Shown piece after piece: positions 15,986 to 42,504 of a stretch of DNA of 64,000 nucleotides; the first letter of the stretch is position 1; every line of letters begins with the position of its first letter. The translations under genes and the position numbers were made by a program. A model generated the notes under the pieces. That model did not search any database and was not told the origin of the DNA. It saw only the letters and a program-made list of their open reading frames with translations. The DNA comes from a virus. The stretch is from positions 1 through 64,000 of the IMG/VR virus record IMGVR_UViG_3300038825_000529. One strand, written 5' to 3'.

Positions 15986-18900
15986 TGGCAACAGTAGAAC
16001 CAACCTTAGATGAACTTTTAGCTAGAGGAGTAGATTCAGTAAGTCAAACTCCGTTAGACGCTAATCCTAATAGAACCTATGGGGATATTCTTAGTCCTGA
16101 TGAATTAAAAGTAGCTGCAATAAAAGGTATTCCGTATATACGTGATCGTTTTATTGAGGCTGAAGGGGCTGATGTTATTAATAAACAAATTACTGATTTC
16201 GATGAGTTTGTAAAACCTAAATTACAAACTTATAATCGAGCTCCTTTTGAATATGAAGACAATGATTATTTTTCTGGATATGCTAGACAACTAGAAGATT
16301 ATAATCAAAATATAGATAAATTACGCGAACGAAGACAAATGATGTACGTGAGAGGTAATTATCCTGAAAGCGTACAAGAACCACGACCACCTTTTAAACC
16401 TTTTGGTTATGATAAAGCTAAAGAACTGGCTGATCTAGGATGGGATCCTTTTAATGAATTAGATTTTCCTGGAATTAGAAACTTTAGAAACCAATTAGCA
16501 AGAGGAGCACCACCAAACGTTATATTTTCTGATTTAAATTATGCTAAAGAAAATATGGACGGAGGAAGATTTGCTGAAAGTCTTCCTGGAAAATTTATTC
16601 CAGCTGATCCTTCTGATCCTTCTAAAGGTTCAATTTATAGAGAAGAAGGTAAAGAAGATCAAATATTTGATTCACCGACTGTAAGACCGTTAGACGTTTT
16701 AGAATTTGCTCAACAAGAAGTTCCTACCATAGGTACTGAAGTAGCTTTTGGTTTAAAAGGTCTAAAACATTTTGATGCTTTTTTACGTAAAAGTGATATT
16801 AAGTTTTTAAAAGATAATCCTATAGCTAGAAAATTTTTTGATAGTGTTTCTAGTAATGTCTTTTTAGCAGGAGGAGCAGCAGGAGCAAGATTTACACAAC
16901 GTTTAATTGGAGCTGCTAACGGAGCTCATAATCGTTCAATCGAAGATATGTTAGACGAAACAGGTTGGACATTTTTATTAGCTTACGGTGGTAATCAAAC
17001 AATCGATGCATTTATGAATGGATTGCCGAAACTATATCGGGCTATTATGGGTAAAGATTTAGGAGCAGAACAAGTAGCTTCAATTAAAGAAGCAATAGAA
17101 CGTAAACGAGCAAGTAAACGCGGTGAAAAAACAGCAACAGTTTCTGGTCGCGATGAGGATATTACGTTACTTGATATAGATGAAGCAGTTGCACAATTAA
17201 GTAAAGATATAGGAGAAAATTTATCTTATAATCCTACATTAGCTAGAGCTTCTAAAGAAGATGTTATTGCTGATATAGAAGCTATGTTAATTCAAGGTAC
17301 AAACAACCCTGCGTATAAAAAGTTTTACGATGAAGCTATGAAAGGTAACGAAGAAGTTATACAAAAATTATTTAGTAATCTTTTTGATAACTTAGACCCT
17401 AACGTTACAGGTCAAACAATTAGTAGAGAGTTATTGAATTTAATGGGTAGAAAGAAAAAAGAATTTATCAATAATTCAGAACAAAGTATACAAAACCTTA
17501 TTTTACAAGTTGATAATATTAAAACAGCAGGAAAAGATACACCTATTTTTCAAAAAGTATTAGATGAAAAAGCGGCTACTGATCTTTATCCCAGATTAAC
17601 AAATCGTATAAACGAAATAAGTAGAACTTATAAAGACGATATAAACACCGTGGTTGATGATGCTTTAATTAACTCAGGGATAGCCGATCTTACGTTTACT
17701 TCAAGACCTATTAGAAAACAAATATTGAATTTTAAAACAGTAGCTGAAGGTAAAACAGGCAGTTTAGCTAGTCCTGGAAAAGGACAAATAAGAAAATTAT
17801 TTAAAGAAACTTTTAGTGATGAAGGATTAGAAAGACTTACAAAATATAGTGAAGGTGATTTAACTTTACCAGAGATTAATCAATTAAGAATCGATATTAA
17901 TAGTATACGGTCAGGTATTGATCCTAGTAAAAGTCCAGGAGATTTAAAAGCATTTAATTTAACTAAAGATTTACAAGATTCTATAGAAAATCAAATGTAT
18001 AAAACAATCCGTTCTAACTTACCTAAAAAAGAAGCACAAGATTTAGTCGATTTATTTGATGCACAGCGTATGGTATACGACACTGCTAATAAACAAGTTA
18101 TAAAAGACATGGCTAAACAAGAGCCTGAAGGAGTTATTAATTATTTATTAAGCACAGGCAGTAAAAACAAACCATTAGTTAATACAAAAGCTAATGATTT
18201 TATGAACTTTTTAAAAGAAACAGGAAGTGTTCCAGAAATAAGAGGAATACAAAATGGTTTAATTAATCATATCCGCAAGAATTTTTTAGATCCATCAAGT
18301 GGGCAACCGAATGTATTAGCTAAAAACTATAAAGAATTTATTGAACAAAATCAAGCAACATTGGAAGCGGTGTTTGGTAAAGAACTTTTTGAAAAAGGCT
18401 TTCCTAAAACAGGTAAAGCTTTTAACGAAAATATTATTGAACCGATAGAAAAACTAAATAGAAAATATAATTTACTAGAACAAAAATATGGTGACGCGAA
18501 CCCATTTAATATTGTAAGTAGAATTTTAGACTCAAGCCCTACAGCAAAAATGTCTGGTGAGTTAATTGATGATTTAGATTTTTTAGATGATTTATTATCA
18601 ATGGCAACCCCTGCAGAAAGAGAGATTTTAGAATCACAGATTAAAGATGGAGCTAAAAAATATCTCGCTACTAGAATGCAAACGGATGGTTTGTTTGATC
18701 CAAATAAATTAAATAGGTTGTTCAATGAAGGTTTTGCTCCTGCGGGTATGGTAGGAGATGATTTAAGTTTTAAAGGTGTTTATCGAAGATTATTAGGAGA
18801 TGAAACAGATTCATTTTTTAAAAATTTAGAAGTAATACGTGACATGGCTATGCGAGAGTACGGACAACTTGGTTCAGATTCTGCTGCAAGAGCTGCGGTT

Positions 18901-22691: not shown

Positions 22692-22719
22692 TTCTTAAAA
22701 CTACTATATAACTAATAGC

Positions 22720-35343: not shown

Positions 35344-35683
35344 AATACATTTACAACGAATTGAAACAGGTATGACAGGAGCAGGTGTTCCTGACGTTAA
35401 CGGTTGTGCCAAAGGTAAAGAGTTCTGGATTGAGCTAAAAGAAATACATTCAGGTAATGCTCTTACTCTACGCCCTATGCAAATATCGTGGTTAGCGAAA
35501 CGTGCATCGTTTGGTGGTCAAGTTTTCGTTATGGCTCGTAAAAACGATGAGATCAAGCTCTACCATATTGACAGTCTTACAGGTATTCAAGACCTCGTTA
35601 AAACTGGATATAAATCAAAAGCTCTTGTGACTCTTACGATTCCTTACGATTGGGACGCTCTTGTTAGTGCTTTACTTTCGTAG
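35294..35683 (+). CDS. VRR-NUC nuclease (PD-(D/E)XK fold)
   Basis: 129 residues. GVPDVNG gives Asp34, EFWIELK gives Glu47 and Lys49, and LRPMQISWL gives Gln63, which is the VRR-NUC catalytic set. Stand-alone phage VRR-NUC proteins can act on branched DNA such as Holliday junctions, so replication intermediate processing is likely. The start overlaps the zinc-finger gene by 50 bases. The next promoter begins inside its last codons. Confidence 0.85.
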   Translation: MAKEKNLWLLLRSNLPEIHLQRIETGMTGAGVPDVNGCAKGKEFWIELKEIHSGNALTLRPMQISWLAKRASFGGQVFVMARKNDEIKLYHIDSLTGIQDLVKTGYKSKALVTLTIPYDWDALVSALLS

Positions 35684-35699: not shown

Positions 35700-35765
35700 G
35701 ATAAAAGTAGCTAATAGGCTACGTGATTAACCAGTGCAGCCATGCACATTAGAAAGGAGAAAATT

Positions 35766-36800
35766 ATGGCACACCAAGTAGAAACGATGGCTTGGACGGG
35801 GGATGTACCTTGGCACGGATTAGGTGTCGAGGTTGATTCTAACCTTAAACCATCTGAAATGCAGAAAGCGGCTCAGTTAGACTGGACAGTTAGCAAACGT
35901 CCTAGTTATACTATAGACGCTCCTGAGTGGAGTGACGATGTTGGTCTTATCCAAGCGGAAAATACCTTCCACGTTGTTCGAGATAGCGATAACCGAATAC
36001 TATCGCATTGTGGTAGAGACTATGTCCCTATACAGAATGAAGACGTATTCAAATTCTTTAAACGCTTTACGGATGCTGGTCATATGACCATGGAAACCGC
36101 AGGTAGTTTGAAAGACGGTGGAGAAATTTGGGGTTTAGCTAAAATCTCAGAAGACTTCGAACTAGCGGGTGACGACCTTATTAAAGGTTATTTGCTTATC
36201 AACCAACCACATATCGTTGGTCGAGCAATGACTATTAAGTTGACACCTATCAGAGTTGTTTGCAACAACACTTTAACGATGGCTTTACAACACGGTGGCA
36301 CAGCGTCCTTCCGTATGCCACACGTTAAAGCATTCGATGACGATGTTATACAGATCGCAGAAGAAGCTCTAGGGCTATCTGCTGAACGTATGACAGAGTT
36401 TAGAGAAGCTGCAAACTTACTCTCTAAGAAGAAAGCTAAACATTCTCAGTTTCTTGAGTTTGTAGGTGATATTTATCAACCTGATATGATTGCTGCTTAT
36501 AGACACGACCAACAGCTCAAAGCTGAAGGTAAGTTGATAGGTATGCAAGAACCTCTTGTTGAGAAATTTAACAAGTTTCCACTTCTTGCTGTCGATGCTC
36601 TAGAACAGTCTCCAGGTGCAAACCTGAAGTCTGCTAAAGGTACGTGGTGGGGAGCATTGAATGCTGTCACCTACGTTGAAGACCATTTACGTGAGTCTGT
36701 AACCGAAGGCAACGCTTTACATAGTTCATGGTTTGGTGCTGCGGCTAATCGTAAAGCTAAAGCCTTAGATTTAGCTGTGAAATATGCGGAGGCTGCATAA
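35766..36800 (+). CDS. DUF932 phage/plasmid-like protein
   Basis: 344 residues from ATG 35766, which has AAAGGAGAAA upstream; the open frame to 35742 is leader. AHQVETMAWTGDVPWHGLGV is the hallmark of DUF932 (TIGR03299), followed by PHIVGRAMTIKLTPIRVVCN. Widespread on phages and plasmids, sometimes highly expressed; biochemical role unknown. Confidence 0.8.
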   Translation: MAHQVETMAWTGDVPWHGLGVEVDSNLKPSEMQKAAQLDWTVSKRPSYTIDAPEWSDDVGLIQAENTFHVVRDSDNRILSHCGRDYVPIQNEDVFKFFKRFTDAGHMTMETAGSLKDGGEIWGLAKISEDFELAGDDLIKGYLLINQPHIVGRAMTIKLTPIRVVCNNTLTMALQHGGTASFRMPHVKAFDDDVIQIAEEALGLSAERMTEFREAANLLSKKKAKHSQFLEFVGDIYQPDMIAAYRHDQQLKAEGKLIGMQEPLVEKFNKFPLLAVDALEQSPGANLKSAKGTWWGALNAVTYVEDHLRESVTEGNALHSSWFGAAANRKAKALDLAVKYAEAA

Positions 36801-38559: not shown

Positions 38560-38728
38560 ATTATTACGCAAAGTTTTAGCAACAGGTGGAGCTGATTGGC
38601 GAGACGCTAAACACGTACAAACAAAAGATCGGTTTGGTACTTTACTACCTACGATCTTTTTAGATCCTAAATGCGGTCGTGCAATATATCGAAAAACAAA
38701 AACTATGGCACGAATGCGGGGGTCTTAG
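38540..38728 (+). CDS. Small basic hypothetical protein
   Basis: 62 residues, Lys/Arg-rich (MNLKKAKLLRKVLATGGADW, RAIYRKTKTMARMRG). Overlaps the lipoprotein gene by 20 bases in another frame. The following promoter starts at its stop codon. No domain recognised. Confidence 0.5.
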   Translation: MNLKKAKLLRKVLATGGADWRDAKHVQTKDRFGTLLPTIFLDPKCGRAIYRKTKTMARMRGS

Positions 38729-38734
38729 TAGTGC

Positions 38735-38764
38735 TTTACTTTGCTAACTTTCGTACTTTATACT
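38735..38764 (+). promoter_or_regulatory. Early promoter, AGTGCTTTACTTT class
   Basis: TTTACT (38735-38740), 18 bases, TATACT (38759-38764). Drives a transcript whose first 320 bases form the structured leader 38798-39060. Confidence 0.7.
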
Positions 38765-38797
38765 ATAAGTATGTTTACTAGAACAAGTTTGATAAGT

Positions 38798-39060
38798 CCA
38801 GAGAGATTCATATGATTACTCCATTAAATAATGATACCGAGCGGAGTTTTTTAGTTAGACCGCTCACCTCTCTGGCTCAAAACCGTGGTGATGTCCCGAT
38901 CCTTGTAAAAGCCTGTACTTTCGAGTCGGTTAGGATGAACGGAGGTATATGCGGAAACCGAGATCCTCTCATCACCACACTTTTTTACTCTCCAGCACCA
39001 AGAGCGGGAGTCTAAATATGAATTTGGTGATAGATGGCGGTCTATCACAAAACACCGCCA
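38798..39060 (+). ncRNA. Candidate structured leader RNA with long-range stems and a potential pseudoknot
   Basis: This gene-poor interval has perfect pairings in series. CCAGAGAG (38798-38805) pairs with CTCTCTGG (38868-38875) and encloses GAGCGG (38839-38844) / CCGCTC (38860-38865). GTGGTGATG (38885-38893) pairs with CATCACCAC (38970-38978) and encloses TCGGTT (38926) / AACCGA (38956). GTGATAGA (39027-39034) pairs with TCTATCAC (39041-39048), and its whole loop TGGCGG (39035-39040) is complementary to CCGCCA (39055-39060). GC content is higher than in flanking genes. Structure inferred by eye; function unknown (regulatory leader, riboswitch-like or trans-acting RNA). Confidence 0.55.
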
Positions 39061-39089
39061 ACAGTTTATTAATAAGAAAGGAGAAATAG

Positions 39090-39344
39090 ATGGAAAAGAA
39101 TGAAATACTACAAATGATCGATACGCTTACACAAAGCCTCGATTTATTAGTACAAACGCAACGCTCGACACAAGAGTTTATGCAAACACAACTCGATGTG
39201 AATAATATGTTGATACAACGTATTAAAAAACTCGAAGTCGAAGCTAACGTGATCAAAACAAAAGAACCTGTTGCGATTAACGATATTTTCGATACGATGA
39301 TTAACCGTTTCAAAAAAGAAGGTGAAGATGCCACGAAAAGCTAA
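39090..39344 (+). CDS. Small coiled-coil protein
   Basis: 84 residues, almost wholly coiled coil (LDLLVQTQRSTQEFMQTQLD). AGAAAGGAGAAATAG precedes the ATG. First gene after the structured leader, therefore the likely target of any control by it. Function unknown. Confidence 0.6.
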   Translation: MEKNEILQMIDTLTQSLDLLVQTQRSTQEFMQTQLDVNNMLIQRIKKLEVEANVIKTKEPVAINDIFDTMINRFKKEGEDATKS

Positions 39345-39867: not shown

Positions 39868-40105
39868 TTTTAATATGATGGGTGCTGTAGGCTATAGGAT
39901 CTCACATACGGACGAATCACAAGATTATCCGATTGCTACCATTAAAATAGCATTTAAGCTTCCTGAGGGCGAAAACGGTCGAATCGAGATGTTTCACGTT
40001 CATGAAGCTTTACGCAGGATGATCGATAAAAAACAAATAGCTTTTGATTTAACTTTACCACCTACCGAACCACCTAAAATTTGGAGTAATAATGAAAGTA
40101 ATTAA
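39860..40105 (+). CDS. Hypothetical protein
   Basis: 81 residues from ATG 39860; ATG 39854 and 39839 are in frame upstream but 39860 has the better AAGAAG spacing. Alpha/beta composition (IATIKIAFKLPEG, HEALRRMIDKKQI). It overlaps MazG by 14 bases. Not recognised. Confidence 0.55.
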   Translation: MSDFNMMGAVGYRISHTDESQDYPIATIKIAFKLPEGENGRIEMFHVHEALRRMIDKKQIAFDLTLPPTEPPKIWSNNESN

Positions 40106-40397
40106 TGATATCGTTGATTGGGCGGAGGTACGCGGACTAATTTACGGACAAGATATACAACCTGAAAAACAGATGTTGAAACTTGTAGAAGAAGTCGGTG
40201 AGACAGCTCGAGCACTCGCCTACGATGATGCACCTGGATTGAAAGACGGGATAGGGGATTGTGTTGTTTGTTTGATCGTTTTAGCCGAACAAAAAGGTTT
40301 AACGCTCGAGGAGTGCATGCAAGCCGCTTACGATGAGATATCTGGTCGTACAGGTCGATTAGAAAACGGTTTATGGAAGAAACAAGAAGACCTCTAG
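40092..40397 (+). CDS. mazG: MazG-like nucleotide pyrophosphohydrolase
   Basis: 101 residues. The metal-binding pattern EEVGE (Glu33, 34, 37) and KDGIGD (Asp52, Asp56) is the MazG/all-alpha NTP-PPase signature. It hydrolyses nucleoside triphosphates to monophosphates and PPi; phage MazG proteins are thought to tune nucleotide pools or alarmones and could here remove unmodified or aberrant dNTPs. Confidence 0.8.
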   Translation: MKVINDIVDWAEVRGLIYGQDIQPEKQMLKLVEEVGETARALAYDDAPGLKDGIGDCVVCLIVLAEQKGLTLEECMQAAYDEISGRTGRLENGLWKKQEDL

Positions 40398-42270: not shown

Positions 42271-42504
42271 ATGAGTGATAAAACTAAACCACTTTCGATT
42301 CACGAGTCGAATTTATTCTGGACTCCAGAGAGTTCAGAGGAGTTGAACGCTTACATCGATAAGCATATACCTGAAGAGGCTGTACTGATGCATATGGCGT
42401 GTGCATTCCAGCAGAACTTGATTGTTAGCACCGTATTGAAATACGGTATTGAGAACACCGAGTTTGTTGCCGCTAAACCATTATTTACGAGGAAAGAAGC
42501 ATGA
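42271..42504 (+). CDS. Hypothetical protein
   Basis: 77 residues (MSDKTKPLSIHESNLFWTPE). Helical second half. Overlaps the next gene by four bases. Not recognised. Confidence 0.6.
   Translation: MSDKTKPLSIHESNLFWTPESSEELNAYIDKHIPEEAVLMHMACAFQQNLIVSTVLKYGIENTEFVAAKPLFTRKEA

Follow-up and report, generated by a model that had tools for sequence, protein, structure and literature searches.

The leader of the gene at 39090 in an uncultivated tailed phage is almost certainly, to judge from the sequences compared, a promoter-proximal structured RNA of modular construction, in which a promoter, a constant hairpin, one to four exchangeable and separately folding modules and a constant linker with the ribosome site follow one another in that order. 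The leader very probably works at the RNA level, and the explanation that we prefer overall, with confidence falling just short of even, is that the modules are RNA cassettes and that the RNA itself is an early trans-acting product. The window, i.e. the whole stretch of 64,000 nucleotides that was analysed, belongs to a phage record of 65,538 bases (G000), the terminase of which has its nearest matches in phages 023Pt_psg01 (57.5%) and DSL-LC04 (57.8%) and in the Pelagibacter phages HTVC027P (53.6%) and HTVC023P (50.2%). The leader is bounded by the end of the upstream gene at 38728 and the start of the downstream gene at 39090, and the features assigned to it are as follows.

38735-38764, plus strand: early promoter-like site, TTTACT-18-TATACT, 9 of 12 matches
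About 38771, plus strand: predicted transcription start
38771-38797, plus strand: single-stranded 5' end of the RNA, opening with an ATG at the predicted start
38798-38875, plus strand: constant 5' hairpin with a conserved U-rich loop, UUUUWUAGUU
38798-38805 / 38868-38875, plus strand: outer 8-bp stem of the 5' hairpin, CCAGAGAG / CTCTCTGG
38839-38844 / 38860-38865, plus strand: apical 6-bp stem of the 5' hairpin, enclosed by the outer stem
38885-38978, plus strand: module of type A, made of P0, P2, P4 and a proposed kissing helix P3
38885-38893 / 38970-38978, plus strand: P0, the 9-bp closing stem of type A, GTGGTGATG / CATCACCAC
38899-38903 / 38932-38936, plus strand: P2 of type A
38926-38931 / 38956-38961, plus strand: P3 of type A, the proposed kissing helix joining the P2 and P4 loops
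38941-38945 / 38965-38969, plus strand: P4 of type A
38987-39060, plus strand: module I, a possible pseudoknot plus a hairpin, in the window and the near-identical L003 only
38987-38992 / 39006-39011 crossing 38996-39001 / 39024-39029, plus strand: possible pseudoknot of module I
39027-39034 / 39041-39048, plus strand: 8-bp stem of module I, GTGATAGA / TCTATCAC
39035-39040: loop TGGCGG of module I, complementary to CCGCCA at 39055-39060, six bases past the stem
39062-39089, plus strand: constant 3' linker with the ribosome-binding site AAGAAAGGAG at 39074-39083
39090-39344, plus strand: gene behind the leader, encoding an 84-aa protein of unknown family with a conserved TQRSxQEFM

The preliminary description of this region had placed it behind an early promoter, and the site at 38735-38764 agrees with that; it is embedded in a longer motif, GCTTTACTTT..TTTCGTAC..TATA, which is kept in all family-1 relatives long enough to include it. 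The 5' hairpin begins some 27 bases past the predicted start, and the ribosome-site linker TTTATTAATAAGAAAGGAG falls outside every module. There is no terminator-like site in the window leader, and no terminator or processing site separates the RNA from the gene in the window's phage family. Promoter-like sites of the same kind lie at 35665 and 37328 of the window; the recurring motif GCTTTACTTT..TTTCGTA..TATA is seen at 22718, 35665, 37328 and 38728, its other copies having short leaders with simple hairpins. Two other long gaps of the window (31694 and 43264) proved to be coding or ordinary promoter regions. The early region also encodes a MazG-like pyrophosphatase (40092-40397) and a DUF932 protein (35742-36800).

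The perfect stems of 8, 9 and 8 bases and the TGGCGG/CCGCCA complementarity reported in the preliminary description lie exactly where it had put them, and its proposal of a structured leader RNA with nested stems is upheld by a fold better than that of shuffled sequences and by covariation in relatives. With MFE programs, which cannot score pseudoknots, the fold of 38780-39100 beats dinucleotide shuffles at z = -2.5 and that of the tighter span 38771-39080 at z = -3.7. Single-sequence energy fails to choose the strand, the minus strand giving similar values; the helices of the 5' hairpin and P0 contain 15 G-U and 0 A-C cells, so the plus strand is the RNA. A search of Rfam 15 with the window leader matched no family, nor did a search with leaders representing the main module types, and among the leaders of the window and its relatives no Rfam riboswitch family was matched even at E up to 10, in line with the earlier remark that no recognised riboswitch is present. 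Weak anti-hemB matches were rejected, as they resemble ordinary terminators (GACCCCGC..GCGGGGTTTTTT), and leader queries against the nucleotide sequences of cultured phages and plasmids returned nothing relevant.

The comparison set consists of about 27 related contigs; a search with the downstream protein yielded 16 viral contigs, and further ones were reached from the constant sequences at either end (5' and 3') and from a mixed protein alignment. The locus is carried by two phage families of an aquatic, largely marine group. In family 1, which is window-like, the promoter, the 5' hairpin and the ribosome-site linker are almost invariant and the interior varies by phage. In family 2 the architecture is the same, and the downstream protein is only about 33% identical to that of family 1, yet homologous, as the shared TQRSxQEFM illustrates. 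The single fixed fold drawn in the preliminary description does not extend to these relatives, in which the interior is a slot holding different, unrelated modules: one to four lie between the constant parts, and no complete leader is without a module. Sorted by sequence and closing stem, and with leader groups of the same content tabulated by hand, the modules fall into at least ten types that form 20 combinations across 22 leader groups.

Module A: the window; diverged forms in L024, L081, L084 and L086; K in L077-L083
Module B/C: L004, L012, L005, L013 and L087
Further module types: D, E, F, G, H, and I (window)
Examples of combinations: A+I in the window, A+G in L006, C+G in L005, A+H in L015
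More examples of combinations: E+F+A+H in L009, A+F+D in L014, F+A in L018

Among the leaders examined a module is never duplicated within one leader, and direct repeats of at least 14 bases are absent from the window, L009 and L014 leaders. Crossing helices (a pseudoknot or kissing loop) can be drawn by eye for most types, the drawing for D being weak; B, D, E, G, H and I are each represented by few variants or by one. The hairpin CCUAGAUURRAUUCGGGG recurs in peripheral loops of modules A, D and K (L006, L017 and L083 leaders), a distribution indicating that it is a mobile sub-part inserted into different modules.

Covariation in relatives, which the preliminary description had named as the way to check its stems, was found as compensatory changes in the 5' hairpin, in P0, P2 and P4 of type A, and in F. 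In the apical stem of the 5' hairpin 95% of cells are paired over 13 distinct sequences, with double-sided changes in five of seven pairs; none of 500 shuffles scores as high, and slid control versions are 27-64% paired. For type A the sample is small and the helices and members were hand-picked, with the selection bias that this brings, so that the counts amount to moderate evidence: P0 has 81 of 81 cells paired and double-sided changes in 6 of 9 pairs, P2 has 20 of 20 cells and 3 of 4 pairs, and P4 has 18 of 20 cells and 4 of 5 pairs. P3 is almost invariant (GGU/ACC), and covariation therefore neither supports nor opposes the proposed kissing helix. Matches of the type A pattern in viral contigs L066-L076 were set aside as chance, real matches occurring only at leader loci.

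Modules are shared by phages whose genes have diverged, and are replaced between phages whose genes are nearly the same. Between families 1 and 2 the modules are 93-94% (H), 95% (E) and 88% (F) identical, whereas DNA identity in the adjoining gene is 52-58%; the reverse is seen in the window (A+I) and L004 (B), where the modules are unrelated and DNA identity between the genes is 94.8%. The modules would either move between phages or be held far tighter than the adjoining gene, and the changing module combinations favour movement. Taken together, the comparison indicates that the modules are RNA cassettes exchanged as whole folding units, their folds being kept by compensatory change.

Module F is demonstrably a covarying pseudoknot at the level of sequence comparison. 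Its six distinct sequences, from three phage groups, form three helices, one of them crossing, with 100% of cells paired and double-sided changes in four pairs; slid versions are 31-56% paired. The potential pseudoknot suggested in the preliminary description, just before the ribosome site, occurs only in the window and L003. The unpaired positions of F are mostly invariant, with the conserved motifs GUGCGAGA..UUAU..GAGAAG..AAACUACUAGA. A search with a loose F pattern placed F in the pelagiphage contigs L118, L120 and L122, which are related to HTVC027P via a 336-aa protein (56%); in 85,000 cellular genomes the F pattern gave 19 matches, all of them chance and lacking the F helices. In L120 and L122 a promoter-like TTGTCA-16-AATAAT (10 of 12) directly precedes F, which has no ribosome site of its own, and a further promoter-like TTGACA, recognised by eye and absent from the scan list, stands between the F RNA and the next gene. 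Having its own promoter-like site in front and another TTGACA before the gene, F in these two contigs is apparently a free-standing RNA. Immediately after F in L118 and L122 (about 2927-3023 in L122) there are two 9-bp hairpins, GUGCCUUGG/CCAAGGCAC and GUGCCUGGA/UCCAGGCAC, with apparently complementary loops (UGAGC/GCUCA, and the palindromic UGCGCA), that may form a further kissing module. F is also seen at the contig end of a related phage (L124, contig 3300030060_002022, 12783-12847), behind homologues of the window genes at 42501 and 42683 and preceded by another apparently structured element without a match.

The cultured pelagiphage HTVC027P has in the corresponding place a promoter-like TTGACA followed by about 430 bases of unannotated, strongly structured RNA, which folds at z = -5.5 on its strand and contains a known orphan family.

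L125 5754-5874, minus strand (about 17753-17873 of the record): Flavobacterium-1 RNA (RF02976) in HTVC027P

The match scores 90.2 bits against a cut-off of 58.9, and HTVC027P alone is above the cut-off: Flavobacterium-1 is unmatched in the window and in all family-1 and family-2 leaders tested. Nine base pairs may form between the loop region of this RNA and the loop of a hairpin upstream. During HTVC027P infection of HTCC1062, RNA-seq assigns gp33 and gp34, which lie behind the structured RNA, to an early-to-middle cluster (PMC12753301); the non-coding RNA terms searched for are absent from the text of that paper. The HTVC027P RNA is comparable to the window leader in position and type, without shared sequence, and it is through F that the pelagiphages are linked to the window locus by sequence.

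Several features favour a set of trans-acting RNAs, namely the interchange of unrelated modules at one site, the lack of repeats and the apparently separate F of the pelagiphages. The absence of any repeated module fits different tools better than a multimer, and the conservation of unpaired positions in F, together with the near-identity of E and H across phages, is better explained by specific partners than by generic stability. That the RNA acts in trans on host factors is nevertheless a part of the preferred explanation to which we give a somewhat smaller chance than to the whole outline, and clearly less than an even one. The main competitor, which we regard as possible though rather unlikely, is a cis-acting leader whose compact modules would act on the transcript carrying them, be it by shielding the early mRNA from ribonuclease, by binding RNA polymerase and so promoting its read-through or by setting translation of the downstream gene; any compact fold would then suffice, hence the interchangeability of unrelated modules. 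The modules are indeed always promoter-proximal and ahead of a conserved ribosome site, very different ones seem equivalent, and the presence of at least one in every complete leader, on an RNA that in the window's phage family is joined to the mRNA, is what keeps a cis role in consideration. However, module sequences are conserved far beyond the needs of a generic stable fold (F, H at 94% and E at 95%), F in L120 and L122 seems to be a separate RNA, and the other leaders of the same promoter type in the window genome are short.

A coding role was examined in several frames. For the frame at 38812 the doubt voiced in the preliminary description was justified: its ATG is AAG in L005-L007, indels of 1, 2 and 4 bases cross it, and it is no conserved gene. 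A 46-aa frame at 38949-39089 (GGAGGTATATG) has a Shine-Dalgarno-like GGAGG and a stop immediately before the ATG at 39090; occurring in family-1 type A leaders only, it is absent from family-1 leaders without type A and was rejected as a gene. Frameshifting at UUUUUUA was likewise rejected, as family 2 does not preserve the slippery codon frame. It is improbable, although less easily dismissed, that a leaderless small protein starts at the ATG 38771 (MFTRTSLISPERFI), with the modules as its variable C-terminus, or that this frame encodes a leader peptide controlling the folding of the RNA. The ATG coincides with the predicted start of transcription, in family 2 as well, and of the 24 leaders holding the start of the frame 19 keep it open over 35-92 codons; stops are fewer than in either of the other frames. 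Against this, it stops after 14 codons in the window (at 38813), L004, L009, L014 and L017, and the ATG is ATA in L004. The synonymous share of changes is 25-30%, with 19-26% expected and 39-50% in the next gene, so that codon-level constraint is near neutral. Moreover, the reading frame through module K differs between L080 and L083, and the changes in F of L077 and L083 replace amino acids on either side of the pseudoknot but preserve the base pairs.

That the ribosome site of the 39090 gene is controlled by a riboswitch, or by the two-state switch raised in the preliminary description, is very improbable, and as a general feature of the locus such a switch is unsupported. The loop TGGCGG could pair with CCGCCA shortly upstream of the ribosome site, and the stem shares GTG 39027-39029 with another possible helix, but the element at 38987-39060 lacks comparative support, being absent from all relatives except the near-identical L003; in most of them another element or none occupies its place. 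The constant ribosome-site linker also lies outside the modules, and the Rfam search gave no riboswitch match. Of the two parts of a riboswitch, an aptamer and an expression platform, the second finds no counterpart here, as the leader has no terminator-like site, the ribosome site is outside the modules and the element next to it is unconserved. Chance folding of a functionless non-coding spacer is scarcely credible, for although some leaders fold no better than shuffles (L082, z = -0.5, from programs blind to pseudoknots), several helices covary and modules are 88-95% conserved where genes have diverged to 52-58%.

Among known systems, the antitoxin RNA ToxI of a type III toxin-antitoxin system is a tandem repeat of one unit of about 36 nt, and the pseudo-ToxI RNA of phage PhiTE consists of pseudoknot units at a locus evolving by expansion and recombination (PMC3475682, PMC5086642). 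Like pseudo-ToxI, the leader would be a phage-made RNA of pseudoknot units at a recombining locus, which makes the former a possible working model; unlike ToxI, window-type leaders hold different modules, none repeated and most larger than the ToxI unit. Crossing helices as in the H-type pseudoknot of ToxI are accompanied by covariation for F only, those of type A and the others being proposed. Also unlike the type III antitoxin loci (ToxI, CptI, TenpI), no toxin gene was recognised adjoining the leader; the adjoining proteins have no Pfam or PHROG match to the endoribonuclease toxins of type III systems, remote homology being possible. RNA anti-CRISPRs (Racrs) are small phage RNAs directed against host defence that mimic CRISPR repeats (PMC10651486); small phage anti-defence RNAs of this sort would fit the exchange pattern of the leader, whereas the window, L009 and L014 leaders contain no repeats. 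By the tests made, the leader RNA is outside the ToxI family and probably outside that of the Racrs. Like the HK022 put RNA, the leader is a structured RNA with which an early phage transcript opens; its composition varies among phages, unlike put. The put RNA of phage HK022 is a fixed hairpin pair that acts in cis on RNA polymerase, keeping read-through. Some animal picornaviruses carry tandem pseudoknots in the 5' UTR that are variants of one unit; the leader resembles them as a chain of pseudoknots in variable number, and differs in that its units are unrelated and exchanged.

By analogy with pseudo-ToxI and the Racrs, the modules may be directed against host factors. According to the trans-acting explanation, the RNA itself would be the product and would act early in infection, each module forming a compact shape that may bind and occupy one particular host factor, such as an RNA-binding defence protein, a ribonuclease or another RNA-handling enzyme. 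A phage lineage would hold the set of modules fitting its current hosts, and the small downstream protein would be made from the same transcript. More speculatively, and as a joint proposition that we consider rather doubtful, the locus could correspond, at the RNA level, to an anti-defence island, with a promoter driving a slot in which phages exchange unrelated pseudoknotted cassettes; every cassette would neutralise or recruit a host RNA-binding factor of its own, and the abundant HTVC023P-type pelagiphages would be included via shared modules and position.

Phage counter-defence has been sought almost only among proteins. A fixed locus of exchanged RNA folds, with a relative in a cultured pelagiphage, would make phage RNA arsenals directly testable. 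It would also place orphan Rfam families, Flavobacterium-1 among them, in a biological context, and it offers several new families of structured RNA in which unpaired motifs are conserved and can be used to look for partners.
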